This document shows positions 10,141 to 64,000 of a stretch of 64,000 bases of DNA, in pieces (position 1 is the stretch's first letter; every line of letters starts with the position of its first letter). This stretch comes from Hyphomicrobiales bacterium. GTDB taxonomy: Bacteria; Pseudomonadota; Alphaproteobacteria; Rhizobiales; Rhizobiaceae. Under the pieces are notes generated by a model. It saw only the letters and a program-made list of their open reading frames with translations. It searched no databases and was not told the origin of the DNA. The stretch is taken from NCBI GenBank assembly GCA_900473795.1, contig UCMT01000001.1:62001-126000 (forward strand), given 5' to 3'. The translations under genes were made by a program, and so were the position numbers.

Positions 10141-10793
10141 GGATCAGGCGATAGGGTTGGCAAGGATTTCATGTAATAGCGGATTGGGCGGCGATAGGAG
10201 TGGATGCACAGTCCCGGAAGAAATGGGGTCGATCGCCATGCACATCGGCGTGTCTTGCCAATGTGGTCGAGGTTTTCTGCGCAGATCTTCCATTTCGAAA
10301 CGTGATGACGGCTGTCGATGCTTAAAAGTATGCTGTCAAAGAACTATATGTTCGAATCGAAACCTGAGAAACGGCAACAAGTTTGTGAAATCAATATTTG
10401 CGGCATTAACGATTTCTCAACCTAGGTTGCGCATCATTCTTAGTACAAACATAAGCGTGCAATAACTTTTCGCTGCAATATTATATTACGAATTTTTCTG
10501 GACTTACACAGACATCTTCTCCCACTAAATCCATAGATACATCGACAGATTTCTTGCCTAGCAGTGCGTTTCGGCATCTGCATTACTCGTGGCCGGCCTC
10601 CGGCCGGCCACAGCCCATCAGCGCTTTTTTCATACCGACCAGCCGCGGTTCGGTAACAGACTGACCACGGGCGATAAGCTCGGAGGGCACATCGTGACAT
10701 TCTGGCGGAATGACTCGCGCCGGACAGTTTTCAAGAATCCCGGACACCAGAAGCCATGACTGACTTCTGTACCTGGCCCCGGAGGAAGCCGCC
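10141..10793. other. Gene-free, partly AT-rich region upstream of the chemoreceptor
   Basis: No supported coding frame. From about 10320 to 10560 the base composition drops clearly below the rest of the window, with AATATTATATTACG-like runs. At 10589-10611 there is a perfect palindromic hairpin, GTGGCCGGCC-TCC-GGCCGGCCAC, followed 14 nt later by a run of six T. It could be a terminator for an unseen transcript or part of the long leader of the chemoreceptor gene. Confidence 0.4.
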
Positions 10794-12764
10794 ATGACGA
10801 TACCATCCATTTTTTCTCGCATCAGTGCAAAACTCGCATTCATGTCCGGTCTTGGCATTTTCATGGTGGTCGCCATGCTCGTTACCGGATGGCAGACGAA
10901 CCGAATGATCAGCGACAGCTCCAACATGGAACAACTGCAATTGATCATTTCCCGCGATCTCGTGGACGCAAAGGCGTCCGTGCGGGGAATGCAGATCGGC
11001 GTGCAGGAACTGCGCCTGGCGCGCACCAAAGACGATGCGGCGAAGGCGGTTGCCTACCTGAAGGAACGCCATCAATCGTTGATCAAATATCTTGATAGCG
11101 CGATGTCGGCGCTGACAATTCAGGTCAACCGCGACCGGGTCCAAGCGATCAAGGCGTTGGCCGAGGGCTATTTCGCCACAGCCCGCGAACTTGCGAAAGT
11201 GATTGATACCAAGCTGGGCGCGGCGGACGATAGAAGTGTTGGCGCCCAGGAAGAGCAGCTGCGGTCATCGCTGCTGGAAACCGCAGGAAAAATGACGAAA
11301 ACGCTGGACGAAGGCGTTGAGGTCGCGAAGGGGCGCGCCAACCAGGCAGGCGGTGATATGGAGGCCGCCCAGAACCTGGCGCAGATGCTGAACCTCGGGG
11401 TCGGTGCCTTGGTTGTCGTCACGCTCGCTGCGTCGACCCTCTTCGGAGCGAGAGGCGTCGCCCGGCCGATCGGCAGGCTGACCGAAAGCATGAGCGTTCT
11501 TGCGAACGGCAATCTCGACACAAATGTTCCGTTTGGTGCGCGCCGCGACGAGATCGGCGAGATGGCGCGGGCCGTCGAGGTGTTCAAAGAGAACGGCATC
11601 AAGGTACGCGAAATGAATGCGCAGGAGGCGGCGCTGCAGGCGAAAAGCGCTGACCTGCAGTCGAGCATCGGCGTGGTGGTAGCGGCCGCGGTTGCCGGTG
11701 ACTTCACGCAGCGCATCACCAAGGACTACGCCAACGCCGATCTCAACCGGTTTGGGACGAGCGTCAATGAACTCGTGTCCTCGGTGGACAACGGAATCGC
11801 CGAGACCCGACGAGTGGTGGCGGCCCTGGCCGAAGGTGACCTGACGGAAAGCATGCGCGGCGAGCTCCAGGGCGCCTTCGGTGAACTGCAGGGTAACGTC
11901 AACGCAACGATGGCGAGCCTGCGCTCGGTGCTGGGTGAGGTGCGCGCCGCAACCGACACGATCAACGGCGGCGCGGGCGAGCTGCGAACGGCCTCCAACG
12001 ACCTGTCAAAACGCACCGAGCGGCAGGCCGCCTCGCTCGAGGAAACCTCATCGGCGCTGGAGGAAATCACGGTCGCCGTCAGGAATTCAACCGAGCGGGC
12101 GACGGAGGCCAGCCACATGGTCAACGAGGCGCGCCGCAGCACCGAACAGTCGAGCGCCGTCGTCAAGGATGCGGTCTCAGCGATGGGGCGGATCGAGCAG
12201 GCCTCCGGCGAGATCAGCCAGATCATCAACGTCATCGACGAGATCGCTTTCCAGACCAACCTGCTGGCGTTGAACGCCGGCGTTGAAGCCGCCCGCGCCG
12301 GTGATGCCGGCAAGGGTTTTGCCGTCGTCGCCCAGGAAGTGCGTGAACTCGCCCAGCGGTCGGCTGTGGCCGCCAAGGACATCAAGGCACTGATCCGGCG
12401 CTCTGGCGAGGAGGTCAATGCCGGCGTCAAGCTGGTGACGGCAACCGGCGACGCGCTCACCTTGATCCAGGGGCATGTTGTCAAGATCAACGAGTATGTG
12501 CATTCGATCGCCACCGCCGCCAAGGAACAGTCGACCGGCCTCTCGGAGGTCAGCACGGCCGTCAACGAGATGGACCAGGTGACTCAGCAGAACGCGGCGA
12601 TGGTCGAGGAATCGACCGCCGCGACCAACCGGTTGGCCGAGGAAGCCGCCACCCTCGCTCGGCTAATCACCCGCTTTAAGCTTGATCGTCCCCAGCCGGT
12701 GCTTCGCGCTATCGATCTTGCGAGCCGCCGTGGTGCGTCTCCCGCCGTGAGAGTTGTCCGTTGA
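10794..12764 (+). CDS. Methyl-accepting chemotaxis protein
   Basis: 656 residues. TM1 is near residues 15-35 ([18 protein letters not shown]). A helical periplasmic region to about 195 contains the helix pair around [16 protein letters not shown]2 is near 197-217 ([18 protein letters not shown]), followed by HAMP ([18 protein letters not shown]) and a second HAMP-like stretch around 290-345. The cytoplasmic signalling hairpin includes [20 protein letters not shown] and [16 protein letters not shown], the CheA/CheW contact region. There is no C-terminal NWETF-type CheR-docking pentapeptide. GGAGG precedes the ATG. The ligand is unknown; no chemotaxis genes lie nearby. Confidence 0.93.
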
Positions 12765-53009: not shown

Positions 53010-53127
53010 GAGCGGTATCGCAAGGAGGTGGACATAGGGTGAGAATCGTGTGCCGGATCGCAGTATTGTCGCGGTTTCAGGCGGCCCCCCGCAGGGCGGC
53101 CGGCGCTCTGATGAAAGGTGCACTTTA

Positions 53128-53991
53128 ATGGATATTTTCTCTACGCTTCAGGAAGAGAAGACCAAGCTCTCGCAAGCCGAAGGCCGCATTGCCGAGATCC
53201 TCCTCACCGATTTCGAATTTGCCGTGAATGCCTCGATCATAGAACTCGCCGGCAAGGCCGACGTCTCGCCGCCGACCGTCACGCGCTTTTGCCGCCGTCT
53301 TGGCTGCGAAAGCTTTTCCGACTTCAAGGTGCAGCTGGCGCGCACAGCCTATGTCGGCATGCGCTACCTGAAGCCCGAGCCGAAAAGCCGGGAACCCGCC
53401 GACGTGGCGCAGGATATCGTCACCAAGGCGCAGAACGCCCTTTTCCTGCTGCACCGCAATCTCGATCTTGCGGCGATCGAACAGGCCACCGAACGGCTTG
53501 CATCAGCGGACATGATCTACGCCTTCGGCTCCGGCGGCAATTCCTCGATGATCGCCAGCGAAATGCAGAACCGGCTTTTTCGCCTTGGACTGCGCGTCAC
53601 CGCCAGTTCCGACCACAGCATGCAATTGATGATGGCCGCTGCGGCAAAGCCCACCGACGTCCTGATCGGCTCGTCGTTTTCCGGCCGCAACGCCGAGCTC
53701 GTGCGATCCTTTTCACTGGCGCGCGAGCAGAAGGTTGCCACAATTGCCTTGACCCAGAGCGGCAGTCCGGTCGCCCGCGCCGCCGATATCTGCGTGGCAG
53801 TCGATCTGCCGGAGGGCAACAATATCTACCGGCCGACCTCGACCCGGATCGCCTATCTCGCGCTCGTCGACATCATCGCCAGTCTCGTCGCCTACCATAT
53901 CCAGCCGCAGGCAACCGTAACGCTGCGGCGCATCAAGCAACAACTCGTCGCCCATCGTGATGGTGATGACCGGCAGCTTCTCGGGGATTGA
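53128..53991 (+). CDS. MurR/RpiR-family transcriptional regulator
   Basis: 287 residues. The N-terminal helix-turn-helix is at about 1-77 (LTDFEFAVNASIIELAGKA and SPPTVTRFCRRLGCESFSDF) and a C-terminal SIS sugar-phosphate-binding domain is at about 120-260 (MIYAFGSGGNSSMIASEMQNR, GSSFSGRNAELVRSFSLA). RpiR regulators respond to phosphosugars, commonly amino-sugar phosphates. I chose the ATG at 53128 because the conserved domain begins there. It lies centrally in the cluster, 27 bp before the SDR, and probably controls the two promoters bearing TGAAA/TTTCA repeats. Confidence 0.9.
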   Translation: MDIFSTLQEEKTKLSQAEGRIAEILLTDFEFAVNASIIELAGKADVSPPTVTRFCRRLGCESFSDFKVQLARTAYVGMRYLKPEPKSREPADVAQDIVTKAQNALFLLHRNLDLAAIEQATERLASADMIYAFGSGGNSSMIASEMQNRLFRLGLRVTASSDHSMQLMMAAAAKPTDVLIGSSFSGRNAELVRSFSLAREQKVATIALTQSGSPVARAADICVAVDLPEGNNIYRPTSTRIAYLALVDIIASLVAYHIQPQATVTLRRIKQQLVAHRDGDDRQLLGD

Positions 53992-54018
53992 CGCGCGCAT
54001 GTACAGAAGGGAACCGGC

Positions 54019-54795
54019 ATGACAGCTTCGATCGCTATCGTAACGGGGGGGGCAGGTGATATTGGCCGGGCCATTGCCCGCCGCCTGGGCGAGGACCATG
54101 ATATCGTCCTGATGCCCGACCTCGACGGCGCTGCGGCCGAGACGGCGGCACTCAGTCTCGGTGACCCCGGCAAATTCGTCGCCTTTGCCTGCGACATTAC
54201 CGATCCGGCAAATGTTACTGATATGGCAAGCCGCGCGGCCGAGCTTGGCAAGGTGCGAACCCTCGTCAACAACGCCGGCGCGGCGCGGGCGGTCAGCCTG
54301 CACGACACGACGCCGGAAATCTGGCGCATGGACAGCGTGCTCAATCTGGAGGCTGCCTTCATCTGTTTTCGCGCTGTCGAGGAGGCGTTGAAGGAAACGA
54401 GAGGCTCCGTCGTCAATATCGCCTCGGTCAACGGCACCAATGTTTTCGGCCACCCCGCCTATAGCGCCGCCAAGGCCGGCCTGCTGCATCTGACGAAATT
54501 GATTGCGGTCGAATACGGCAAGTTCGGCATCCGCGCCAACGCCGTCTCTCCGGGCACGGTTCGCACGCAAGCCTGGGAGGACCGCGCGGCCGCCAATCCG
54601 AACGTCTTTGAGGATGCCAGGCGCTGGTATCCGCTGCAGCGGATCGCCACTCCAGAAGATGTCGCCAACGCCGTCGGCTTTCTGGCGAGCCCGCTTGCGG
54701 CCGCCATCACCGGCGTCTGCCTGCCGGTCGATTGCGGCCTGACGGCGGGGCAGGCGGAACTTGCCCGCACCTTTTCCCAGTCGGACCATTACTAG
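54019..54795 (+). CDS. SDR family oxidoreductase
   Basis: 258 residues. VTGGAGDIGRAIARRLGED is the cofactor loop, TLVNNAGAARAVSLHDT the NNAG motif, GSVVNIASVNG the serine strand, and AYSAAKAGLLHLTKL the Tyr-x-x-x-Lys active site. AITGVCLPVDCGLTAG near the end is the usual C-terminal signature. It probably oxidises or reduces a hydroxyl of the cluster's sugar-like substrate. It is cotranscribed with the RpiR gene upstream and GH20 gene downstream (16 bp). Confidence 0.87.
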   Translation: MTASIAIVTGGAGDIGRAIARRLGEDHDIVLMPDLDGAAAETAALSLGDPGKFVAFACDITDPANVTDMASRAAELGKVRTLVNNAGAARAVSLHDTTPEIWRMDSVLNLEAAFICFRAVEEALKETRGSVVNIASVNGTNVFGHPAYSAAKAGLLHLTKLIAVEYGKFGIRANAVSPGTVRTQAWEDRAAANPNVFEDARRWYPLQRIATPEDVANAVGFLASPLAAAITGVCLPVDCGLTAGQAELARTFSQSDHY

Positions 54796-54811
54796 AACAA
54801 GAGGAACAGAT

Positions 54812-56731
54812 ATGCAGAAGGTGACCTATCGTCTCGAAAGCGCGTGGCAACCGGACGGCGGTCCGAACGGCCGCTTCACCTTCAGCCTCTTCAATCTTTC
54901 CGAAAGCACGATCGAAAGCTTCACGATCGTCTACACGTCACTGACGCGGGTCATCGACCAGAACGCCTGCGAAAATGCCACCTTCGTCAAGCGGGATGCC
55001 AACTATCATGAGTTTGCGCCGCCATCCGGCTTCGTGCTGGCACCCGGCGCATCCTGGACGTTCACGGTCGGCGGCCTCCATCGCAAGGCGGTGCATTGCA
55101 CCGATGGCGCGAAATCTGCCTATCTGACACTTGCAAATGGCCGTCACGTGCCGGTTGCCGTCTCCGATCTGCTCCTCGAGGGCCGGGTGAGCGAGCCGCC
55201 GCCGGCCCTTTTGCCGCAAGGCAAACTCGATTTGCCATTTGCGCTGCAGCCGTGGCCGCGCCGGATCGACGCGGAGCCGGGCGACGCCTTTCCTGTCTGC
55301 CTCTACCCGGCGCCGGGGTGTCCGTTGGACGATCTCAAGGCCGTCGAGACTGTCATTGCCCTGTTCCGCCGCCTTTTCCCGTCGGATCATGCGCCCCTCA
55401 GTCTGGCGCCGAACGGCCAGGGCAGGGCGCTGCGGCTAAAACAGGACACAGCGCTTGTCCCGGAGGGTTACGAACTTGCCTTCTCCGCAGACGAAGTCAG
55501 GCTCTCCTTTGGCGGAGATGCTGGGCGCCAATACGGATTGACGACGCTGGCGCAGCTTCTGAACGGCGCGCGCCGGGAGCCGGCGAAATTCAGCTTCCCG
55601 ATTGCCGGCACCATCTCCGATGCGCCCCGCTACAGCTGGCGCGGCTGCCATCTCGACGTGTCGCGGCAATTCTATCCGCTCGGTGATCTCTCGCGCCTGA
55701 TCGATATTCTCGCCTGGCTGAAGCTCAATATCTTCCATTGGCACCTCACCGACGACGAGGCGTGGCGGCTGGAGATCAAGGCCTATCCGGAACTGACGAC
55801 CGTCGGTGTCCTGCGAAGCCCGGACGGGCCGCTCCTGCCCCAACTCGGCAACGGCGCCGAACCCGTCGGCGGTTTCTACAGTCAGGACGAGGTACGCTCG
55901 CTCATTGCCCATGCCTCAGCGTTAAACGTCGAGATCGTGCCGGAGATCGACATTCCCGGTCACAATGCTGCGACCCTTGTCGCGTTGCGCGATTTGTCAG
56001 ACGGTCAGGAAGCGCCGGAGAGCTATCACTCCGTGCAGGGCTACGCCAACAATGCGCTGAATCCTGCCGTGCCGTTCACCTACGAATTCCTGGAAAAGGT
56101 CTTCGACGAAATGGTTGAGCTTTTCCCGTCCGTCTACATCCATGTCGGGGGTGATGAGGTGCCGGACGGGGCGTGGCTCGCCTCGCCGCTGGCAAGGACG
56201 TTGATGGAGCGCGAGGGCATTTCCGGTACATTCGGGCTGCAGTCCTATTTTCTCAAACAGGTGAAGGACATGCTCACCAGGCGCGGCAAGAAGCTGGCCG
56301 GCTGGAACGAGGTCGCCCATGGCGGCGGTGTCGATGCAGCAGATACGCTGCTCATGGCCTGGCAGAGCCCCGAGGTCGGCATCGAGCTTGCCCGCGAAGG
56401 CTATGAAGTCGTCATGACGCCCGGCCAGGCCTATTATCTCGACATGGTCCAGGCAGAGGCATGGCAGGAGCCGGGCGCGAGCTGGGCCGGCAGGGTGCCA
56501 CCTGCCCACACCTATGCCTACGAGGCCCAGGGCGAATTCCCGGAGGAGCTGAAACATCGGCTCAAAGGCGTGCAGGCCTGTATCTGGTCGGAGCATTTCC
56601 TCTCGCGCGGCTATTTCAACCGCCTCGTCTTTCCGCGTCTTCCGGCTATTGCGGAGGCGGCGTGGACGCCGAAGAGCGGGAAGAACTGGCTGCGCTTTGC
56701 AGCCATCGCCGACCTTTGCCCAAAACTTTAA
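54812..56731 (+). CDS. Beta-N-acetylhexosaminidase (GH20)
   Basis: 639 residues with no evident signal peptide, so probably cytoplasmic. An N-terminal beta-sandwich (about 1-130, FTFSLFNLSESTIESFTIVY) and a GH20b-like domain (about 130-275) precede the catalytic barrel. This contains RGCHLDVSRQFYPL, HWHLTDDEAWRLEI, EIVPEIDIPGHN and IHVGGDEVPDGAW, where Asp-Glu is the catalytic pair of substrate-assisted hexosaminidases. It removes terminal GlcNAc or GalNAc. Together with a CUT1 importer this suggests uptake of intact oligosaccharide or glycoconjugate followed by internal cleavage. GAGGAA precedes the ATG. Confidence 0.9.
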   Translation: MQKVTYRLESAWQPDGGPNGRFTFSLFNLSESTIESFTIVYTSLTRVIDQNACENATFVKRDANYHEFAPPSGFVLAPGASWTFTVGGLHRKAVHCTDGAKSAYLTLANGRHVPVAVSDLLLEGRVSEPPPALLPQGKLDLPFALQPWPRRIDAEPGDAFPVCLYPAPGCPLDDLKAVETVIALFRRLFPSDHAPLSLAPNGQGRALRLKQDTALVPEGYELAFSADEVRLSFGGDAGRQYGLTTLAQLLNGARREPAKFSFPIAGTISDAPRYSWRGCHLDVSRQFYPLGDLSRLIDILAWLKLNIFHWHLTDDEAWRLEIKAYPELTTVGVLRSPDGPLLPQLGNGAEPVGGFYSQDEVRSLIAHASALNVEIVPEIDIPGHNAATLVALRDLSDGQEAPESYHSVQGYANNALNPAVPFTYEFLEKVFDEMVELFPSVYIHVGGDEVPDGAWLASPLARTLMEREGISGTFGLQSYFLKQVKDMLTRRGKKLAGWNEVAHGGGVDAADTLLMAWQSPEVGIELAREGYEVVMTPGQAYYLDMVQAEAWQEPGASWAGRVPPAHTYAYEAQGEFPEELKHRLKGVQACIWSEHFLSRGYFNRLVFPRLPAIAEAAWTPKSGKNWLRFAAIADLCPKL

Positions 56732-56753
56732 GCTTCAAACCATGAGGAAAGCC

Positions 56754-58202
56754 ATGCGCATCGCCGTCGGCGGCATCCATACCGAATGCAGCACCTATTC
56801 GCCCGTCCTGATGACCGTCGATGATTTCCGAGTATTGCGCGGCGCCGATCTGCTCGGCGCGGACTATTTCAGTTTCCTTCAAGGGGACGGCATCGAGCAT
56901 GTGCCTCTGCTGCACGCGCGCGCCGTCCCGGGCGGCCCCGTGTCGCGTGACGCTTACGAAATTTTCAAGGCCGAGTTTCTCGCAACGTTGCAGGCGGCCT
57001 TGCCGATCGACGGTCTCTATCTCGCAATGCACGGCGCCATCAATGTCGAGGGCATGGACGATGCCGAGGGCGACTGGATCTCTGCCGCGCGTGCGGTCGT
57101 CGGGCCGGATTGCCCGGTCGCTGCGAGTTATGACCTGCACGGCAATGTCAGCGAGAGGATCATCGATCAGCTCGATATCTTCGCCGCCTATCGCACCGCG
57201 CCGCATATCGATGTGCGCGAGACGATGGTGCGCGCCTGGTCGATGTTGGTTGAGACGTTGCGGACCGGCCGTCGTCCGGGCGTCGCCTGGGCAAAGGTGC
57301 CCGTCTTGCTGCCGGGCGAATGCACCTCGACGGAGGATGAGCCGGCGAAGTCGATCTATTGCGATCTTCCCGGCTTCGATGCCAGGCCGGGTATCCTCGA
57401 TGCCAATCTGATGGTCGGCTACGTCTGGGCGGACGAGCCGCGGGCAACGGCGTGTGCAGTCGTCACCGGCGTCAACAAAGCCGGCGCGTTCAAGGCGGCC
57501 GAGGAAATCGCTCTCCGATATTGGAATACACGGGAGAGTTTTGGCTTTGGCCCGCAGACGGGCCCGTTGGAAGAGATGCTTCAGATTGCGGCGGAGGCGA
57601 AGACCGCGCCGGTGATCTTGGCGGACTCCGCCGACAATCCGACCGGCGGCGGCGTTGGTGACCGCGCTGACGTGCTGCGTGCGTTGCTTGCCCGCGACTG
57701 GCAGGGTGCGCTTATTGCCGGCATCACCGATCGGCCCGCTGTCGAATCCTGCTTTGCGGTCGGCGAGGGAGCCTCACTCGCTCTTCGTATCGGCGGCAGC
57801 CTGGATCCGGCCAGCGCGCCGGTTGAGATCGCCGCGACTGTGCTGCGACTTGATGATCCTGGTGCTGCGGCCGAGCGCCAGGCCGTCGTGCGTGTCGGCG
57901 GTATCGAGATCGTGCTCGCAGCGCGCCGGCGCCCCTATCACACGATCGAGGACTTCAGGCGGCTCGGGCTGGAGCCGAGCACCGTGCAGCTCCTGGTCGT
58001 CAAATCAGGTTACCTGTCTCCGGAACTCGCGCCGATTGCCAATCCGAATCTGATGGCGTTGACCGATGGCGTCGTCAATCAGGACATTGCCAATCTCGCG
58101 AGCAACCGCAGGACAAGGCCGGTCTTTCCCTTCGATCGGAATTTCGAATTTACACCAGAGGCCAAACTTTCGGCGCGCTGGCTCACGAGCCCCACAGGCT
58201 GA
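56754..58202 (+). CDS. M81 family metallopeptidase (MlrC-like), paralogue 2
   Basis: 482 residues. RIAVGGIHTECSTYSPVLM, LYLAMHGAINVEGMDDAEGDW, SYDLHGNVSERI and YRTAPHIDVRETM are the M81 N-domain motifs with the metal-binding residues; LADSADNPTGGGVGDRADVL opens the C-terminal domain. It is clearly homologous to the gene at 50511-51986 but diverged through most of its length, so the two probably act on different substrates or steps. I chose the ATG at 56754 (GAGGA 6 nt upstream) over 56742. It lies 22 bp after the hexosaminidase. Confidence 0.87.
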   Translation: MRIAVGGIHTECSTYSPVLMTVDDFRVLRGADLLGADYFSFLQGDGIEHVPLLHARAVPGGPVSRDAYEIFKAEFLATLQAALPIDGLYLAMHGAINVEGMDDAEGDWISAARAVVGPDCPVAASYDLHGNVSERIIDQLDIFAAYRTAPHIDVRETMVRAWSMLVETLRTGRRPGVAWAKVPVLLPGECTSTEDEPAKSIYCDLPGFDARPGILDANLMVGYVWADEPRATACAVVTGVNKAGAFKAAEEIALRYWNTRESFGFGPQTGPLEEMLQIAAEAKTAPVILADSADNPTGGGVGDRADVLRALLARDWQGALIAGITDRPAVESCFAVGEGASLALRIGGSLDPASAPVEIAATVLRLDDPGAAAERQAVVRVGGIEIVLAARRRPYHTIEDFRRLGLEPSTVQLLVVKSGYLSPELAPIANPNLMALTDGVVNQDIANLASNRRTRPVFPFDRNFEFTPEAKLSARWLTSPTG

Positions 58203-58250: not shown

Positions 58251-59492
58251 ATGAATCTCTCTCCCGGTGTCTTCATCATGACCTCCACGTTGCTGATCGC
58301 CTTCCGTCATCCGGTGGTCCGGTTGAGCATGATCGCGATCTTCCTGTTCGGCTTCACCGGCGCGGCGACGTCGCCGTATCAGTCCGTCATCGGCATCACG
58401 GAGCTGGGTCTGAGCGACGGCTTCTATTCGATCCTGATTTTCACGGCCGCCGCCGTCAACGTCGTTGCAAGCCTCTGGGTCGGTGTGCTCGCTGACAGGA
58501 TCGGCAACTATCGGATCCTGCTGATGACCGTCATGACGTTCGGCGTCGTCGGCTATGGTCTCGTTTATGCCGTGCCGGTGGCAGCGAGCTTCGTCGTCTG
58601 CACGCTGATCATCCTGCCGGTCTACAACGCAATGAACTCGCTGCTGTTTGCCAATGTCCGGGCGGTCGCAAACGCCGGGGGCGGGCGGGATGCGGCGGCG
58701 ATCAATTCCGGTGTTCGTGCGGCGATTTCCGTCGCCTGGGTTCTCGTTCCGGGACTTGTCGCGCTCGTCCTGGCGGGCAGCGGCAGCATGATGCCCGCCT
58801 ATCTGCTTGCCTGCCTCGGTTGCATCGCCAATCTGGCTCTGGTTTATTTCAAACTGCCGGCGGGCAAAGACGCGCCGCCGTCGATCGACCGCCGCCATTC
58901 CTTCCTCGCCTCCTTTGCCGAAGTTCTTTCGCCCAAGGTGTTCGGGCGGCTGATGGCAGTTTCCCTGATCACCTCGACGCTGCATGTCAACGCGGCGGTC
59001 CAGCCGCTGATCATCACCGGCGCCGCGGGCGGCAAGGTCACGGATATCGGCGCCATCGTCGGAATCGTCGCCTTTCTCGAGGTCGTCTTCATCTTCGTCT
59101 GGGCGCGCATCCAGCTTTACCTGCATCCAGTAACGGCGCTTGCAGCCGGCACAGCGCTCTATGCCATCTATCTGACGCTGCTCGGCTTTTCCTGCGCACC
59201 CTGGCACGTCTATGCCCTGACGCCGCTCAGCGCTTTCGCCGCTGCCGCACTGATCAGCATTCCGATCACCTATATCCAGGACCTGATCGCCGATCGTCCC
59301 GGTCTCGGCAGTTCCCTGATTTCGGTCAACCTGTTCCTGAGCGGCGGGCTGAGCGCGATGCTGTTTGCGCTCGGAACCCGTTTTAGCGACTATTCCGGTA
59401 CTTCGAAGCTCGGTGCTTGTGCCGGTATGCTGGGCTTCGCGCTGCTCATCTATCTTGACGGCCGCCACACGGCGCGGCGGTCGGCACGCTGA
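58251..59492 (+). CDS. MFS transporter, sugar-efflux-like
   Basis: 413 residues with about 12 membrane helices. GVLADRIGNYRILLMT matches the MFS loop 2-3 motif. FLFGFTGAATSPYQSVIGI at TM1 and the repeated short polar loops resemble sugar-efflux (SetA-like) transporters, but that subgroup call is tentative. It is the last gene of the amino-sugar-like cluster and could import or export its substrate or a product. The ATG at 58251 lacks a good ribosome-binding site; 58278 is an alternative start. Its 3' end overlaps the convergent gene by 47 nt. Confidence 0.82.
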   Translation: MNLSPGVFIMTSTLLIAFRHPVVRLSMIAIFLFGFTGAATSPYQSVIGITELGLSDGFYSILIFTAAAVNVVASLWVGVLADRIGNYRILLMTVMTFGVVGYGLVYAVPVAASFVVCTLIILPVYNAMNSLLFANVRAVANAGGGRDAAAINSGVRAAISVAWVLVPGLVALVLAGSGSMMPAYLLACLGCIANLALVYFKLPAGKDAPPSIDRRHSFLASFAEVLSPKVFGRLMAVSLITSTLHVNAAVQPLIITGAAGGKVTDIGAIVGIVAFLEVVFIFVWARIQLYLHPVTALAAGTALYAIYLTLLGFSCAPWHVYALTPLSAFAAAALISIPITYIQDLIADRPGLGSSLISVNLFLSGGLSAMLFALGTRFSDYSGTSKLGACAGMLGFALLIYLDGRHTARRSAR

Positions 59493-62106
59493 TCCGCTTG
59501 GCAAAATCGACTGCGGCGAGGCAGTGCCGACGCAGGGCAATGGCCACCAGCCCGATGGAGAGATCGCGGTGTTTGGAGAGGTACGACAAGACCTGCTTCT
59601 GAGCCCACCATGCGATGACCCCCAGGGCCACGCCCCCGACAATGGCGAGTATCGAAAAAGCCGGAGCCGGGATTTTCCCGGAAATCGGAAGGAGAAGCAG
59701 TTCCGGCATGAAACGGTGGAGGAGGTAGATGTGAAAACTCGCGGCAGAAACCGGCAGGACGAGCGCTTTCAGTGCGCGTGGGACAGGTAGCCGCGGCAGG
59801 AACAAGAGAAGAGCCAGGACAGGGATTTGCAGGAAATATTTGACCCGGGTGCCGATCCAGACGCTTTCGTAGAACGCAAAGAAGCTGAAGACGATCATGC
59901 CCGCCGCCATCAGCAGCAGCCGCTTGGAGGTCGTATCCGCGAAACCTGCCAGAAAGCCGATCGCGGCGAGATAGAGCATCCACGGCAATGTGAAAATCTG
60001 CCGGTTTCCAATCTGCCAGAGGTCGGGAATGATCAGGCGGGAAAGCAGCGCGACGCCCAGCAGCACCAGTCCCGCCGAGAAAGGTGACCACGCGGCCATT
60101 TTTCGAACGGGTGGAAGGGCAAAGAACCCGGCAAACAGTAAGAGCATCTGGCAATAGGCTTCAACGAACCAATAGAGGTAGGGAAGCATGGTGTGTCGCT
60201 CGGGATCGGCAAAGCCGAAATTCCCGCCCATCACGACCGACGCCCATGGCATCTCGCCCCAGGCAACGGCGTAGCTTGCGACGATGAGATAGTAGGGGAT
60301 CACGACTGGCAGTGCAGAGCGGAGAAGGCGAATGATATCGAACTCCGCAACGGCCCGCCATTGAAAGCGGGCAAGTCCGAAGCCGACAAGCAGGACCATC
60401 GCGGCGGAACCGCCCGGAATCGGCCAGAGCGTCTCGTGCTGCACGACGACGAAGAGGATGGCGAGCGCCCGGATGAGAAGACTGGTCTCCAGTTTGGGCG
60501 CTGTTTCAGTCCGCTTGACTCTGTCGACCAGGTCCGAAATGGAAAGCTTTTCCCAATTCACCGGCGCTTCACCGAGGATGCGCTCCAACGCGATCGACAG
60601 CTGGACGAAGCGCAGCGAATCTCCTCCCAACGACAGAAAACTGTCCCGCGGGCCGACCCGGACCGGGTAAAACAGCTGAGCGAAGACATCCTGGACGGTT
60701 TCTCGCCGGTCGTCGTTCTCCGTGCTCTTTGCGGAAAATTCTGCCGTCAGCCGCCCATAGTCGATCTTGCCGGATGAAAGGCGGGGCAGCGTCGCCCGCG
60801 GCGTGGCGCCGACCTGCAGCAAGGTGAGCCCGCTTGCCGCGGCCAGAATGCGCTTTGCCTCAAGCTCATCGGCAGGACCGGCGCAATAGGCATGGATTGC
60901 CTTGTCATCGCCGATGACCGCCGCGTGAATCCCATGTTTCTCGAGCGCCTGTTCCATCGCATCATGACTGATCCTGAGACCGGCGATCTTCGACATCCGC
61001 TTCAGACGCCCGCAGATGCGAAAAAGCCCCTGTTCGTCCAGCTCGGCGAGATCCCCCGTTTTCAGGCACTCGAGATCGTGGCCGAGGGCCAGTTCGCCGC
61101 GCGAACTCGCATAGCCCATCATGACATTCGGGCCGCGAAAAACGAGTTCCCCGGGCTGCCGCGGCGACAGGATCGGCTGTCCCTTTTCGTCTTCCAGTGT
61201 CAGTGCACCGCCGGGGATTGCGACGCCGATCCGATCCTCGTTGCCCTCAAGCTGATCCGGCGGCACATAGGCCAGCCGCGCCGTGGCTTCCGTCTGGCCG
61301 TACATCGCGAAAAATTCTCCGCCGTCATCGCGCATCAGGCGGTTGTAGCGGCGGATGATATCGGGCGAGAGGCGACCGCCGGCAACCGTCATGAACCGCA
61401 GGCAGGCGGGCCGCTTGTTGCGAAAATCGAAGCTCTCCAGAAGCTCGTAGGAGTAAGGCACCCCTGAAAAATTCGTGCATCCGGCACGTTCCAGCCGTTC
61501 GCAGAACTGCGGATCCGAAATCGGAATTTTCGGGAAATACAGGCTCGCGCCGACGGAAAGGTGCGAGTGCAGCACCGAAAGCCCGTAGCAGTAATGCAGG
61601 GGCAACACCATGCAGCTGCGGTCGGCTGGCGTCAGCCCGAGATATTGTGCAATCGACGCCGCATTTGCGTCAAGGTTCTGGGTTGACAGCCTTACCGCCT
61701 TGGCTCTCCCCGTGCTCCCGGATGTCATGAGCAGAAGTGCCAGATCGGAATGGGGCGCAAGGCCGGCCTCGCCGCGGCCGCGGCGGGACATCTCCCAGCG
61801 CCCGCTTCTCTGGCGCAAGTGGATGTCGGGCGCAAAAGCCTCGTCGATGATCGCGCTTTGCCCGTTATCCGCCGGCGGGACCATGACGGCCGCGTGGCCC
61901 GCCTGAAGCGCTGCGAGATAGCCGATGATGGCGTGCTCGGAATGCGACGCTTCCACCGCAATCAGCATTTTCCCGGGACCGAATGTTGCGGATTTCCGGC
62001 TGACGCGGTCGGCCAGCTCCCGATAGGTGATGGGCTCGCGGTCTGGGAAAAGCAGTGCCGGCGAATCGCCCCAATTTGCCAGCGCGGACGTAAAGAGCGG
62101 TGCCAT
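59446..62106 (-). CDS. Adenylation-carrier-membrane acyltransferase fusion protein
   Basis: 886 residues with three parts. An AMP-forming adenylation domain covers about 1-450, with LLMTSGSTGRAKAVRLS (125-141), MYGQTEATARL (268-278), CLKTGDLAELD (347-357) and the catalytic lysine in LSSGKIDY (Lys447). A carrier domain covers about 465-535, with LSLGGDSLRFVQ where Ser497 would hold phosphopantetheine. An integral membrane acyltransferase-3-like domain covers about 545-850, with about ten hydrophobic helices. The layout suggests activation of an acyl or amino acid, loading onto the carrier, and membrane-embedded transfer to an extracytoplasmic acceptor, like DltA-DltC-DltB in one chain. Substrate and acceptor are unknown. 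No Shine-Dalgarno is seen at the ATG. Confidence 0.82.
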   Translation of the reverse strand: MAPLFTSALANWGDSPALLFPDREPITYRELADRVSRKSATFGPGKMLIAVEASHSEHAIIGYLAALQAGHAAVMVPPADNGQSAIIDEAFAPDIHLRQRSGRWEMSRRGRGEAGLAPHSDLALLLMTSGSTGRAKAVRLSTQNLDANAASIAQYLGLTPADRSCMVLPLHYCYGLSVLHSHLSVGASLYFPKIPISDPQFCERLERAGCTNFSGVPYSYELLESFDFRNKRPACLRFMTVAGGRLSPDIIRRYNRLMRDDGGEFFAMYGQTEATARLAYVPPDQLEGNEDRIGVAIPGGALTLEDEKGQPILSPRQPGELVFRGPNVMMGYASSRGELALGHDLECLKTGDLAELDEQGLFRICGRLKRMSKIAGLRISHDAMEQALEKHGIHAAVIGDDKAIHAYCAGPADELEAKRILAAASGLTLLQVGATPRATLPRLSSGKIDYGRLTAEFSAKSTENDDRRETVQDVFAQLFYPVRVGPRDSFLSLGGDSLRFVQLSIALERILGEAPVNWEKLSISDLVDRVKRTETAPKLETSLLIRALAILFVVVQHETLWPIPGGSAAMVLLVGFGLARFQWRAVAEFDIIRLLRSALPVVIPYYLIVASYAVAWGEMPWASVVMGGNFGFADPERHTMLPYLYWFVEAYCQMLLLFAGFFALPPVRKMAAWSPFSAGLVLLGVALLSRLIIPDLWQIGNRQIFTLPWMLYLAAIGFLAGFADTTSKRLLLMAAGMIVFSFFAFYESVWIGTRVKYFLQIPVLALLLFLPRLPVPRALKALVLPVSAASFHIYLLHRFMPELLLLPISGKIPAPAFSILAIVGGVALGVIAWWAQKQVLSYLSKHRDLSIGLVAIALRRHCLAAVDFAKRISVPTAAPCGGRQDR

Positions 62107-62150: not shown

Positions 62151-62179
62151 CCTATGAAATGCATGAATGCTATTGTCAA
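62151..62179 (-). promoter_or_regulatory. Candidate promoter of the adenylation-acyltransferase fusion gene
   Basis: On the minus strand TTGACA (62179-62174) is followed after 17 bp by CATAGG (62156-62151), a perfect -35 with a moderate -10. Transcription would begin near 62144, leaving a leader of about 40 nt before the ATG. The region is shared with the divergent ABC transporter gene. Confidence 0.45.
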
Positions 62180-62215: not shown

Positions 62216-63310
62216 ATGACTTTTGGCGCGTGGGACCGAAAGACGGAGAAGAATGTGATTCCGGCAGCAGAAGATCCGGCGCTCGAACTTCGCAATGTAA
62301 GCCGCAGGTTTGGAAAGACCGCCGCTCTGGACGACGTATCGCTGACGATCGGCTCCGGCGAGATCATCTGTCTCGTTGGCCGTTCCGGCTGCGGAAAATC
62401 GACATTGCTGAGAATGATCGCCGGTGTCGATACAATCGATGCGGGCTGCATTCTGCTGGACGGCGACGAAGTTTCGGGGCCATCGATCTTCGTGGAGCCG
62501 GAGGACCGCAGGATCGGTTTCGTTTTCCAGGACTACGCTCTGTTCCCACATCTGACCGTCGAGCAGAACATCCTGTTCGGCCTCAGGGGTCGCCCGAGAA
62601 ATACTGCGGTGCAGAGGGTCAACGAAATTCTCGGGCATATCGGCATAGAGCATCTGAAGGCCCGATATCCGCATATGCTGTCGGGTGGCGAACAGCAGCG
62701 CGCCGCGCTCGCCCGCGCGCTCGCGCCCCGGCCGGATATCCTGCTGATGGACGAGCCGTTTTCCAACCTGGATCGCGGCCTGCGCGATCGGGTTCGTGAT
62801 GAAACGCTTTCGCTTCTGCGAAGTATCGGGACGACGGTCATCATGGTCACACATGATCCGGAAGAAGCCCTTTCGGCAGGCGACCGCGTTGTCCTGATGC
62901 GGGCCGGCCGGATCGTCCAGACCGGATCGGGCTACGACCTGCACGACCGGCCCGTGAATCCTTATGCCGCCGAGTTTTTCTGCGCCTTCAACAAGGTTCC
63001 GGGCGTCTACCGTGAGGGCTATGTCGAAACGGCGATCGGCCGGTTTGCCCACAGGCTGGATCTCGGCGAAGGCTGCCCCGCCACGCTCTATATCCGCCCG
63101 CAAGGAATTTCGGTGTCGAGCGCGGATGGGCAATTGCGCGGACAAGTGCAGAGCCGCGTTTTCCTTGGCGATGTGGAGCAGCTTGCCGTCAAGGTGGACG
63201 GCCTGGAGCAGCCGCTGCTGGTGAAAACGATGGAGCGTCTGGAAGCCGGGACGGACCTTGTCGGCCTGGTCGTCTCGCCGGAGAGTTGCCTGGCATTTGC
63301 CGCAGCCTGA
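62216..63310 (+). CDS. ABC transporter ATP-binding protein, Fe(III)/FbpC type
   Basis: 364 residues from the ATG at 62216; the start is uncertain because no good ribosome-binding site is visible. Walker A is LVGRSGCGKSTLLRMIAGV, followed by FVFQDYALFPHLTVEQNI, the signature MLSGGEQQRAALARAL, Walker B LLMDEPFSNLDRGLR and the switch histidine in MVTHDPEEALSAGD. The C-terminal regulatory domain resembles FbpC-type iron transporter ATPases. It precedes a ferric-ion binding-protein gene. The permease must lie beyond the window. Confidence 0.85.
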   Translation: MTFGAWDRKTEKNVIPAAEDPALELRNVSRRFGKTAALDDVSLTIGSGEIICLVGRSGCGKSTLLRMIAGVDTIDAGCILLDGDEVSGPSIFVEPEDRRIGFVFQDYALFPHLTVEQNILFGLRGRPRNTAVQRVNEILGHIGIEHLKARYPHMLSGGEQQRAALARALAPRPDILLMDEPFSNLDRGLRDRVRDETLSLLRSIGTTVIMVTHDPEEALSAGDRVVLMRAGRIVQTGSGYDLHDRPVNPYAAEFFCAFNKVPGVYREGYVETAIGRFAHRLDLGEGCPATLYIRPQGISVSSADGQLRGQVQSRVFLGDVEQLAVKVDGLEQPLLVKTMERLEAGTDLVGLVVSPESCLAFAAA

Positions 63311-63406: not shown

Positions 63407-64000
63407 ATGACCATGTCGATCATCGCGAAATCCGCACTGCTTTCGGCGAGCTTGCTGCTCGGCGCGAGCGCTGTGTCGGCGGCGGAACTCAATATCTACA
63501 CCACGCGTGAGCCGGGTCTGGTCCAGCCGCTCTTGGATGCCTTCACGGCTGCCACTGGCACCAAGGTCAACACGGTCTTTCTCAAGGATGGGCTCGTCGA
63601 GCGCGTCGCGGCCGAAGGCGAAAGCTCGCCGGCCGATATCCTGATGACCGTGGATGCCGGCAATCTCGTCGATCTCGTCGAAAAGGGCGTCACCCAACCG
63701 GTCGAGTCCGCTGTTTTGACGCAGTCTATCCCGGAGCAGTTGCGCGATGCGAAAAACAACTGGTTCGCACTCTCCATGCGTGCCCGCGTCGTCTATGCGC
63801 AGAAGGACCTCGATCTCGCAGCCCTCAACTACGAGGATCTGGCCGATCCGAAATGGAAGGGCAAGATCTGCATTCGCTCCGGCCAGCATCCGTATAACAC
63901 CGCGCTCTTTGCCGATTACATCGCCCATCACGGCGCTGAAGCGACGGAGACATGGCTCTCCGGCGTCAAGGACAACCTGGCCCGCAAGGCAGCCGGCGGC
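63407..64000 (+). CDS. fbpA: Fe(III) ABC transporter substrate-binding protein (5' part, cut by window edge)
   Basis: The first 198 residues are visible. The signal peptide is SIIAKSALLSASLLLGASA with cleavage near VSA-AE. The mature protein begins LNIYTTREPGLVQPLLDAF and continues with KVNTVFLKDGLVERVAAEG, ADILMTVDAGNLVDLVEKG and LNYEDLADPKWKGKICIRSG, the pattern of ferric-ion-binding FbpA/AfuA proteins (GLVERV and WKGKIC segments). It delivers iron to the ATPase/permease in the inner membrane. CTGGAGG precedes the ATG at 63407. Confidence 0.9.
   Translation, partial: MTMSIIAKSALLSASLLLGASAVSAAELNIYTTREPGLVQPLLDAFTAATGTKVNTVFLKDGLVERVAAEGESSPADILMTVDAGNLVDLVEKGVTQPVESAVLTQSIPEQLRDAKNNWFALSMRARVVYAQKDLDLAALNYEDLADPKWKGKICIRSGQHPYNTALFADYIAHHGAEATETWLSGVKDNLARKAAGG

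Follow-up and report, generated by a model that had tools for sequence, protein, structure and literature searches.

What does a bacterium do with a single protein that joins an acid-activating domain, a carrier and a membrane acyltransferase, and which donor would feed the transfer? This question is raised by a gene at positions 59446-62106 of a 64,000-nucleotide stretch (hereafter the window, meaning the whole stretch) of the Hyphomicrobiales genome GCA_900473795.1, family Rhizobiaceae. The gene encodes an 886-residue fusion of an adenylation (A) domain, a carrier (T) domain and an acyltransferase-3 (AT3)-like membrane domain. We consider it moderately probable that this protein and its relatives are iron-starvation-induced, self-loading transmembrane acyltransferases, fed by their own carrier and serving Fe(III) acquisition. 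Operator-like sequences upstream of the gene in two unrelated bacterial groups suggest a new one-protein step in iron capture. Open-licence PubMed Central yielded no paper describing this architecture or connecting it with iron; the few candidates were judged unrelated by title and opening of the abstract, and PMC12542777 by an excerpt. Loci and genomes are cited below by L and G numbers.

Results

A single chain with adenylation, carrier and AT3-like domains

A preliminary description, made from the letters alone, had proposed that one chain combines activation, a carrier and membrane acyl transfer. Stop codons interrupt the plus strand across the gene, and the 886-residue open reading frame (ORF) lies on the minus strand. 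The ORF, Lys447 and Ser497 fall exactly where that description had placed them (Table 1), and the three-part architecture is borne out by Pfam domains and by the invariance of both residues in alignment A1, which holds 17 full-length sequences, the window protein among them. At E<=1, Pfam finds AMP-binding and PP-binding in all 17 and Acyl_transf_3 (PF01757) in 14 (best E 1.1e-14). The window protein itself scores 23.1 bits for PP-binding (E 9e-5; Pfam cut-off 20.8) and 12.8 bits for Acyl_transf_3, which is under the cut-off of 31. The features of an A-T didomain of the non-ribosomal peptide synthetase (NRPS) type are present (AMP-binding, A10 lysine, carrier serine), and Pfam matched no condensation domain in the window protein. 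The genome holds two matches to the phosphopantetheinyl-transferase family PF01648, potential primers of the carrier. Annotated records name the gene 'AMP-binding protein', including those of R. etli CFN 42 p42e (L049) and S. meliloti pSymB (L045).

Several relatives exceed the Acyl_transf_3 cut-off: L042 (54.7 bits), L097 (45.1), G157 (43.6) and the AT3 proteins of two split loci described below (47.3 and 41.4). In hhalign, 36 family AT3 domains (35 genes, since L016 and L119 are the same gene) matched 24 ordinary AT3 proteins with Prob 97.7 and E 1.3e-12, and a major facilitator superfamily (MFS) protein used as a control gave Prob 0.1 against the smaller family alignment A3. The ordinary set consists of the 25 of 35 loci reached by an iterative profile, minus L173; several of the 24 are long open frames that may hold a further domain. 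When a predicted model of the AT3 domain alone (pLDDT 68.6, pTM 0.67) was compared with known structures by VIA-align, the top 11 were nine HGSNAT and two GWT1 entries (Z 15.2 to 9.7); the row that follows, an unrelated one, reaches 6.8. The best HGSNAT superposition of this model (Z 15.2) covers 273 of 320 residues at a root mean square deviation of 5.0, and GWT1 reaches Z 10.6. Seven of the nine HGSNAT entries are recognized by title, 8jkv through its paper (excerpt of PMC12423673) and 8jl4, titled only 'membrane proteins', by inference. Three points tell against the fold assignment: VIA-align cautions that a helical model may score as high as Z about 14, Foldseek returned nothing for the AT3 model at E<=0.001, and a full-length AlphaFold model built from 6 sequences was poor (pLDDT 45.7) and was set aside. 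We accepted the transmembrane acyltransferase (TmAT) fold match because the superposition covers most of the model and its scores stand clear of those of unrelated rows.

The first helix of the domain carries an R-X10-H motif (R546, H557), with the histidine in 36/36 rows, arginine in 34 and lysine in the other 2. W646, G717 and H797 are kept in all 36 rows and Y794 in 34. Known AT3/TmAT proteins (OafB, OatA, HGSNAT, GWT1) are alike in the R-X10-H of the first helix, a Y-x-x-H near the end and the predicted TmAT fold, but the present family is without their RXXR pair and has an N-terminal A-T fusion. Judged by profile and by predicted fold, the membrane domain is a divergent, AT3-like TmAT subfamily, as the preliminary description had anticipated in relating it to acyltransferases; we file it as divergent because the RXXR pair of canonical acyl-CoA-dependent AT3 proteins is missing. 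Fusions of AT3 named in excerpts of PMC9558356 and PMC9833829 are with SGNH, racemase and eukaryotic partners, and the terms AMP-binding, adenylation and non-ribosomal are absent from PMC9558356.

A carrier proposed in place of acyl-CoA

Known AT3 proteins are argued to be fed by acyl-CoA, not by a carrier protein (PMC9558356, in part). The RXXR motif of OafB (Arg71, Arg74) lies in helix 3, and R74 is one of several residues seen to touch the 3'-phosphate of CoA in simulations (excerpt of PMC9833829). Ordinary AT3 proteins in our set keep the two arginines in 24 and 23 of 24 cases, and RXXRXXP in 21. In the present family RXXRXXP occurs in 0/36 rows, and arginines never fill the two mapped positions together, whichever of two registers is used, as expected if a carrier replaces acyl-CoA. 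With domain bounds set by hand, the carrier ends about 13 residues ahead of R546. Because of this short tether and the loss of the conserved arginine pair, we infer that a tethered phosphopantetheine arm stands in for CoA.

Fused and split members form one family

Fused members are found in Rhizobiaceae, in further Alphaproteobacteria and in Actinomycetota. Within its genus the gene is accessory, since 16 of 26 genomes (its own included) are without a family member; seven, again counting its own, have a full-length copy and three a broken or partial one. It is not a chance ORF, given the copies in genomes of the genus and in 80 plasmid records, each with a single region that spans at least 80% of the query. 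Among broken copies, no AT3 domain was found in G002 (L053), G013 (L054) has an internal TGA and a frame change, and G014/L040/L050 has a frame change within the AT3 domain. Of the 398 genomes of Microbacteriaceae, the family of Agromyces, 20 have a match at E<=1e-100. In 19 of them it spans most of the model (the G567 copy is missing roughly 100 positions at the start, that of G1171 lies at a contig end, and that of G1194 has one internal TGA); in the remaining genome, G1221, it is a fragment.

Two genomes encode the same parts as overlapping genes: G058 (L051) has a 574-residue A-T protein followed by a 330-residue AT3 protein with a 17-base overlap, and G862 (L125) a 655-residue A-T protein followed by a 338-residue AT3 protein with an 8-base overlap, all starts being mechanical. 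The carriers of these A-T proteins score 52.1 and 48.4 bits with the family's own profile. In an A-domain tree of 57 rows, midpoint-rooted for drawing only, fused and split members group together (95/98), separately from stand-alone A domains, and the two split members are sisters (96/92) and together sister to 33 fused rows (92/89). Thus, given the overlapping genes and the sister position of the split pair, we take A-T plus AT3 to be a functional unit. By eye, a second AT3-looking gene (L051:4456-5601) lies beside the split pair of G058.

One A-T-AT3 fusion, L097 of G259, stands separate from the family in the A-domain tree. It is an independent fusion (L097:6451-9300) with another A domain and an AMP-binding_C domain as well; by eye, a membrane ORF (10508-12058) and a small carrier-like ORF (12117-12365) lie near it. 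The nearest A domains outside the family are stand-alone relatives of about 460 residues in other proteobacterial clusters, which unlike the family have no carrier or AT3 domain within the same ORF. We considered them as members of the same system and dropped them. By eye, those of L094, L095, L098 and L100 (G170, G372, G502, G219) sit beside LuxE-like and LuxC-like genes, some of these loci also having a small carrier-like ORF, and perhaps represent a separate acyl pathway.

Predicted iron operators upstream of the gene in two groups of bacteria

Between the fusion gene and its divergent neighbor lies a candidate RirA-type operator (IRO), TGA-N9-TCA, that overlaps a TTGAC -35-like element of the minus-strand gene. 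The site is identical in the window, L037, L206 and L043, and L039 differs by one N9 base. The R. leguminosarum fhuA IRO, TGACTAAAATAATCAT, contains the same pattern (PMC10510648, excerpt). We fixed the pattern after seeing the window site and then applied it to other loci, 27 alphaproteobacterial ones in all (19 Rhizobiaceae, 8 others). It was present in 17/19 Rhizobiaceae loci, between -51 and -82 relative to the start chosen, with 0.03-0.08 expected in each. When the spacing was varied over 20 upstream regions of 150 bp (the 19 Rhizobiaceae loci plus Phyllobacterium L046), spacing 9 was found in 17, and no other spacing in the range 3-18 turned up in more than 5. Neighboring genes had the pattern in 10/203 cases; 3 of these are the shared intergenic site itself, and 3 lie ahead of the Fe permease gene. 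The non-adjacent Fe-binding-protein genes of G021 and G875 have it upstream too, among 9 and 5 matches per 9-kb stretch. These boxes predict that the rhizobial genes belong to the RirA regulon.

For Actinomycetota we scanned with the DtxR/IdeR consensus TTAGGTTAGSCTAACCTAA (PMC8464063, in part). The 19-bp box was matched at 13-17 of 19 positions upstream in 17/18 Microbacteriaceae loci, each with p<=0.015 from 400 dinucleotide shuffles; L196 and L201, at contig ends and the latter a fragment, were left out. Ten of the 17 boxed loci are without an adjacent importer (L191, L193, L195, L197, L199, L200, L202-L205). The Nocardioidaceae locus L041 has a 16/19 match at -33, the next best in 2.7 kb being 11. 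Only 9/219 neighboring genes reached 13/19; four of these are Fe-binding-protein genes, and the other five, by their coordinates, are divergent genes sharing the upstream region of the fusion gene. Duplicate loci are L104 (same as L041), L105 (L042) and L038 (L206). As in Rhizobiaceae, the boxes of the 17 Microbacteriaceae loci and L041 point to membership of an iron regulon, here predicted to be that of DtxR/IdeR.

Fe(3+) importers adjoin the gene

The preliminary description had seen no neighbor that would name the product. That was mistaken: the fusion gene is head-to-head with an Fe(3+)-type ATP-binding cassette (ABC) importer, with the iron-operator-like site between them, and both features recur in other lineages. 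The closest solved structures to the periplasmic binding protein (SBP) homolog of L043 (L043:6679-7692) are the iron-binding proteins 1y9u (E 1e-141) and FbpA 1q35 (E 8e-91), and in the L043 plasmid record the homologs are annotated as an iron ABC transporter permease and an Fe(3+) SBP. NCBIfam gave sub-threshold models only, 2-aminoethylphosphonate transport first, and so we named the importer from its Protein Data Bank matches.

A complete importer adjoins the fusion gene in 16/48 loci (Table 1). In L207 it is co-directional and upstream, in the other rhizobial loci and L141 divergent, and in the rest tail-to-tail. The importers themselves differ: the L142 SBP is nearest to other solved iron-binding proteins, YfuA/SfuA, than that of L043, and the L141 SBP is about 30-32% identical to both. 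At E<=1e-30 the SBP is present as one copy each in 10/12 Rhizobiaceae genomes with a full-length fusion, and in 7 of these 10 it adjoins the fusion gene. At E<=1e-10 there are 20 matches in 19 Microbacteriaceae genomes, 9 of which have one adjoining the fusion gene. Because a genome holds one such SBP among thousands of genes, we estimate the chance of adjacency at well under 1% each, although the genomes are related and the counts are not independent.

Table 1. Positions of the fusion gene, its parts and its neighbors (window numbering unless a locus is given)
Feature	Position or loci	Strand	Basis or remark
A-T-AT3 fusion protein gene, 886 aa	59446..62106	minus	ORF list, Pfam, alignment of relatives
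Adenylation domain, residues 1-460	60727..62106	minus	Pfam AMP-binding E 4e-46; bounds set by hand
Carrier (PP-binding) domain, residues 468-533	60508..60705	minus	Pfam PP-binding; bounds set by hand
AT3/TmAT-like membrane domain, residues 540-842	59581..60489	minus	Pfam in relatives, hhalign, VIA-align
Lys447 codon	60766-60768	minus	within RLSSGKIDYGR; kept in 17/17
Ser497 codon	60616-60618	minus	within SLGGDSLRFVQ; kept in 17/17
R546 codon	60469-60471	minus	R-X10-H of AT3 domain
H557 codon	60436-60438	minus	R-X10-H of AT3 domain
RirA-type operator candidate, TGA-N9-TCA	62164..62178		between two divergent genes
ATPase, Fe(3+)-type ABC importer	62216..63310	plus	start set by comparison with L043; longer ORF start 62120
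Fe(3+)-binding periplasmic protein (SBP)	63413..64000	plus	cut by window end; importer comparison
Importer permease, beyond window	L218:2497-4158		after SBP
Adjacent importer, Rhizobiaceae	window, L037, L206, L039, L043, L207, L212		
Adjacent importer, Microbacteriaceae	L042, L140, L141, L142, L190, L192, L194, L196, L198		

Other neighbors

In an all-against-all BLAST of 30 loci, with genes called mechanically, the clusters present in at least 3 loci were the family itself, parts of ABC importers, window-clade genes and some sporadic genes. We dropped all but the importer as partners: the window-clade genes (MFS, M81, GH20, short-chain dehydrogenase/reductase (SDR), MurR-type regulator and others) and the sporadic ones, such as a CGNR zinc-finger gene (L045, L048, L090). 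In the window, positions 53050-58202 hold genes for a MurR-type regulator, an SDR, a GH20 hexosaminidase and an M81 peptidase, followed by an MFS exporter gene (58251-59492) that shares 47 bases with the end of the A-T-AT3 gene. As a block, MurR/SDR/GH20/M81/MFS occurs only in close relatives of the window among the 30 loci, and the SDR cluster also includes one L091 gene.

Discussion

From these domains, motifs, gene order and operator-like sites we propose the following sequence of events. The cytosolic A domain would convert a carboxylic acid, probably one other than an alpha-amino acid, into an acyl-AMP, and the acyl group would then move to phosphopantetheine on Ser497 of the fused carrier. 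The tethered carrier may insert its arm into the AT3 pore, taking the place of acyl-CoA, and chemistry based on R546 and H557 would hand the acyl group to an acceptor at the outer face. Low iron is predicted from the operator sequences to derepress the gene, via RirA in Rhizobiaceae and DtxR/IdeR in Actinomycetota. In what is the weakest step, the product would most likely be an exported Fe(III) ligand, of low mass or bound to the surface, and the iron it captures may enter through the often-neighboring Fbp-type importer. The general logic of exporting an activated acyl group, as first described, appears right. An AT3 acyltransferase induced by iron limitation is already known in AimS of Acinetobacter baumannii (PMC13345540), which shares this trait; unlike the present fusion, it is described simply as an AT3 acyltransferase, and adenylation and AMP-binding have 0 occurrences in the excerpt.

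More tentatively, and as a possibility that we rate less likely than not, the family may form a one-protein siderophore-like system, carrier-fed rather than CoA-fed, that turns a common acid into an Fe(III) ligand and releases this from the cell to feed Fbp-type importers in both Alphaproteobacteria and Actinomycetota.

A number of results weigh against an iron-linked, carrier-fed acyltransferase. On the iron side, TGA-N9-TCA occurs in only 1/8 alphaproteobacterial loci outside Rhizobiaceae; it is missing from L148 and L051 and weak in L212, which has no TTGAC, and Rhizobiaceae together with Phyllobacterium L046 give 17/20. Many of the 17 loci with the site are close relatives, not 17 independent events. 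The window contains the pattern 27 times against 12.75 expected (0/100 shuffles had as many), and because it is so common there, the single window site is weak evidence alone. The 18th Microbacteriaceae locus, L140, whose N-terminus was not found, has no DtxR/IdeR box. In a separate scan upstream of 10 loci for Fur, DtxR, ICE and Mur sites, none stood out; the sole match among these 40 tests was a weak ICE (p 0.025), which we took as chance. An adjacent iron importer is lacking in 32/48 loci, some with short flanks and one a fragment, and no second partner recurred widely in the neighbor comparison, in which neither siderophore genes nor TonB receptors were sought by name. On the donor side, an R-x-x-R string occurs elsewhere in the segment in 16/36 rows, the window included, 11 of them at 593/596, about one turn nearer the cytoplasm, and the family may still use CoA. 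The carriers of the split A-T proteins are under the Pfam PP-binding cut-off (13.6 and 14.9 against 20.8 bits).

Could acylation of the envelope itself be the purpose? In that case the protein would, at low iron, acylate a lipid, lipopolysaccharide, glycan or peptidoglycan at the outer face and change charge or permeability, with no iron ligand made. We regard this as a real but clearly weaker candidate. The AT3 proteins described in a review have glycans and other molecules of the surface as their main targets (PMC9558356, in part), and the operator evidence fits envelope remodeling equally well. Remodeling alone leaves unexplained, however, why distantly related Fe(3+) importers are direct neighbors in two phyla. 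Gram-negative and Gram-positive hosts, moreover, share no outer-membrane acceptor.

Alternatively, the protein might add an acyl tail to a chelator made by other genes as that chelator leaves the cell. Iron control and the logic of transmembrane acyl transfer are in keeping with such siderophore tailoring, but no recurring cluster was recognized as siderophore synthesis in the all-against-all BLAST of the 30 loci, and we think it improbable.

The comparison drawn at the outset was with D-alanylation by separate Dlt proteins, so that the protein would activate an amino acid and esterify it to a surface polymer in a single chain. The order of the chemistry is the same, and both A domain and carrier are present. 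Dlt (DltA/DltC/DltB) and Vibrio AlmEFG likewise use adenylation, carrier and membrane acyl transfer in sequence, but as several chains, and with an MBOAT protein (DltB) or an AlmG-type protein instead of an AT3-like domain. No Pfam match to MBOAT was found in the 17 relatives at E<=1. By the register of a LgrA alignment, the equivalent of Asp235 in amino-acid-activating A domains is Ser in 10 and Cys in 7 of the 17 sequences, and the acid activated is for this reason probably not an alpha-amino acid. The A4 motif, LPLHYxYGLSV, resembles that of acyl-CoA ligases, and the best NCBIfam model, though far under its cut-off, is an acyl-CoA ligase, with amino-acid adenylation second. The Dlt parallel is not supported in detail: the present family differs in lacking Asp235 and in having iron operators, and we consider a D-alanylation analog very unlikely.

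Epsilon-poly-lysine synthetase has the order A-T-membrane, and NRPS-like A-T proteins such as PA1221 (4dg8) have the A-peptidyl carrier didomain in common with the family. Unlike in either, the membrane domain here is a TmAT-fold acyltransferase, and no condensation domain was matched.

That the iron link is a coincidence, with -35 elements and neighborhoods inherited by descent around an unrelated function, would suit a TTGAC that doubles as a -35 element and a syntenic block common to the whole window clade, but seems most improbable in view of a spacing scan that peaks only at 9, two unrelated operator types in two phyla, distant importers in several arrangements and the scarcity of the sites among neighboring genes.

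Independent iron operators and importer neighbors give a first functional handle on a gene labeled 'AMP-binding protein'. Because activating domain and carrier lie in one polypeptide, the question of the donor becomes testable with a single chain. AT3 proteins are held to use acyl-CoA, and this family, if it transfers acyl groups as we propose, would show a second way of feeding transmembrane acyl transfer.

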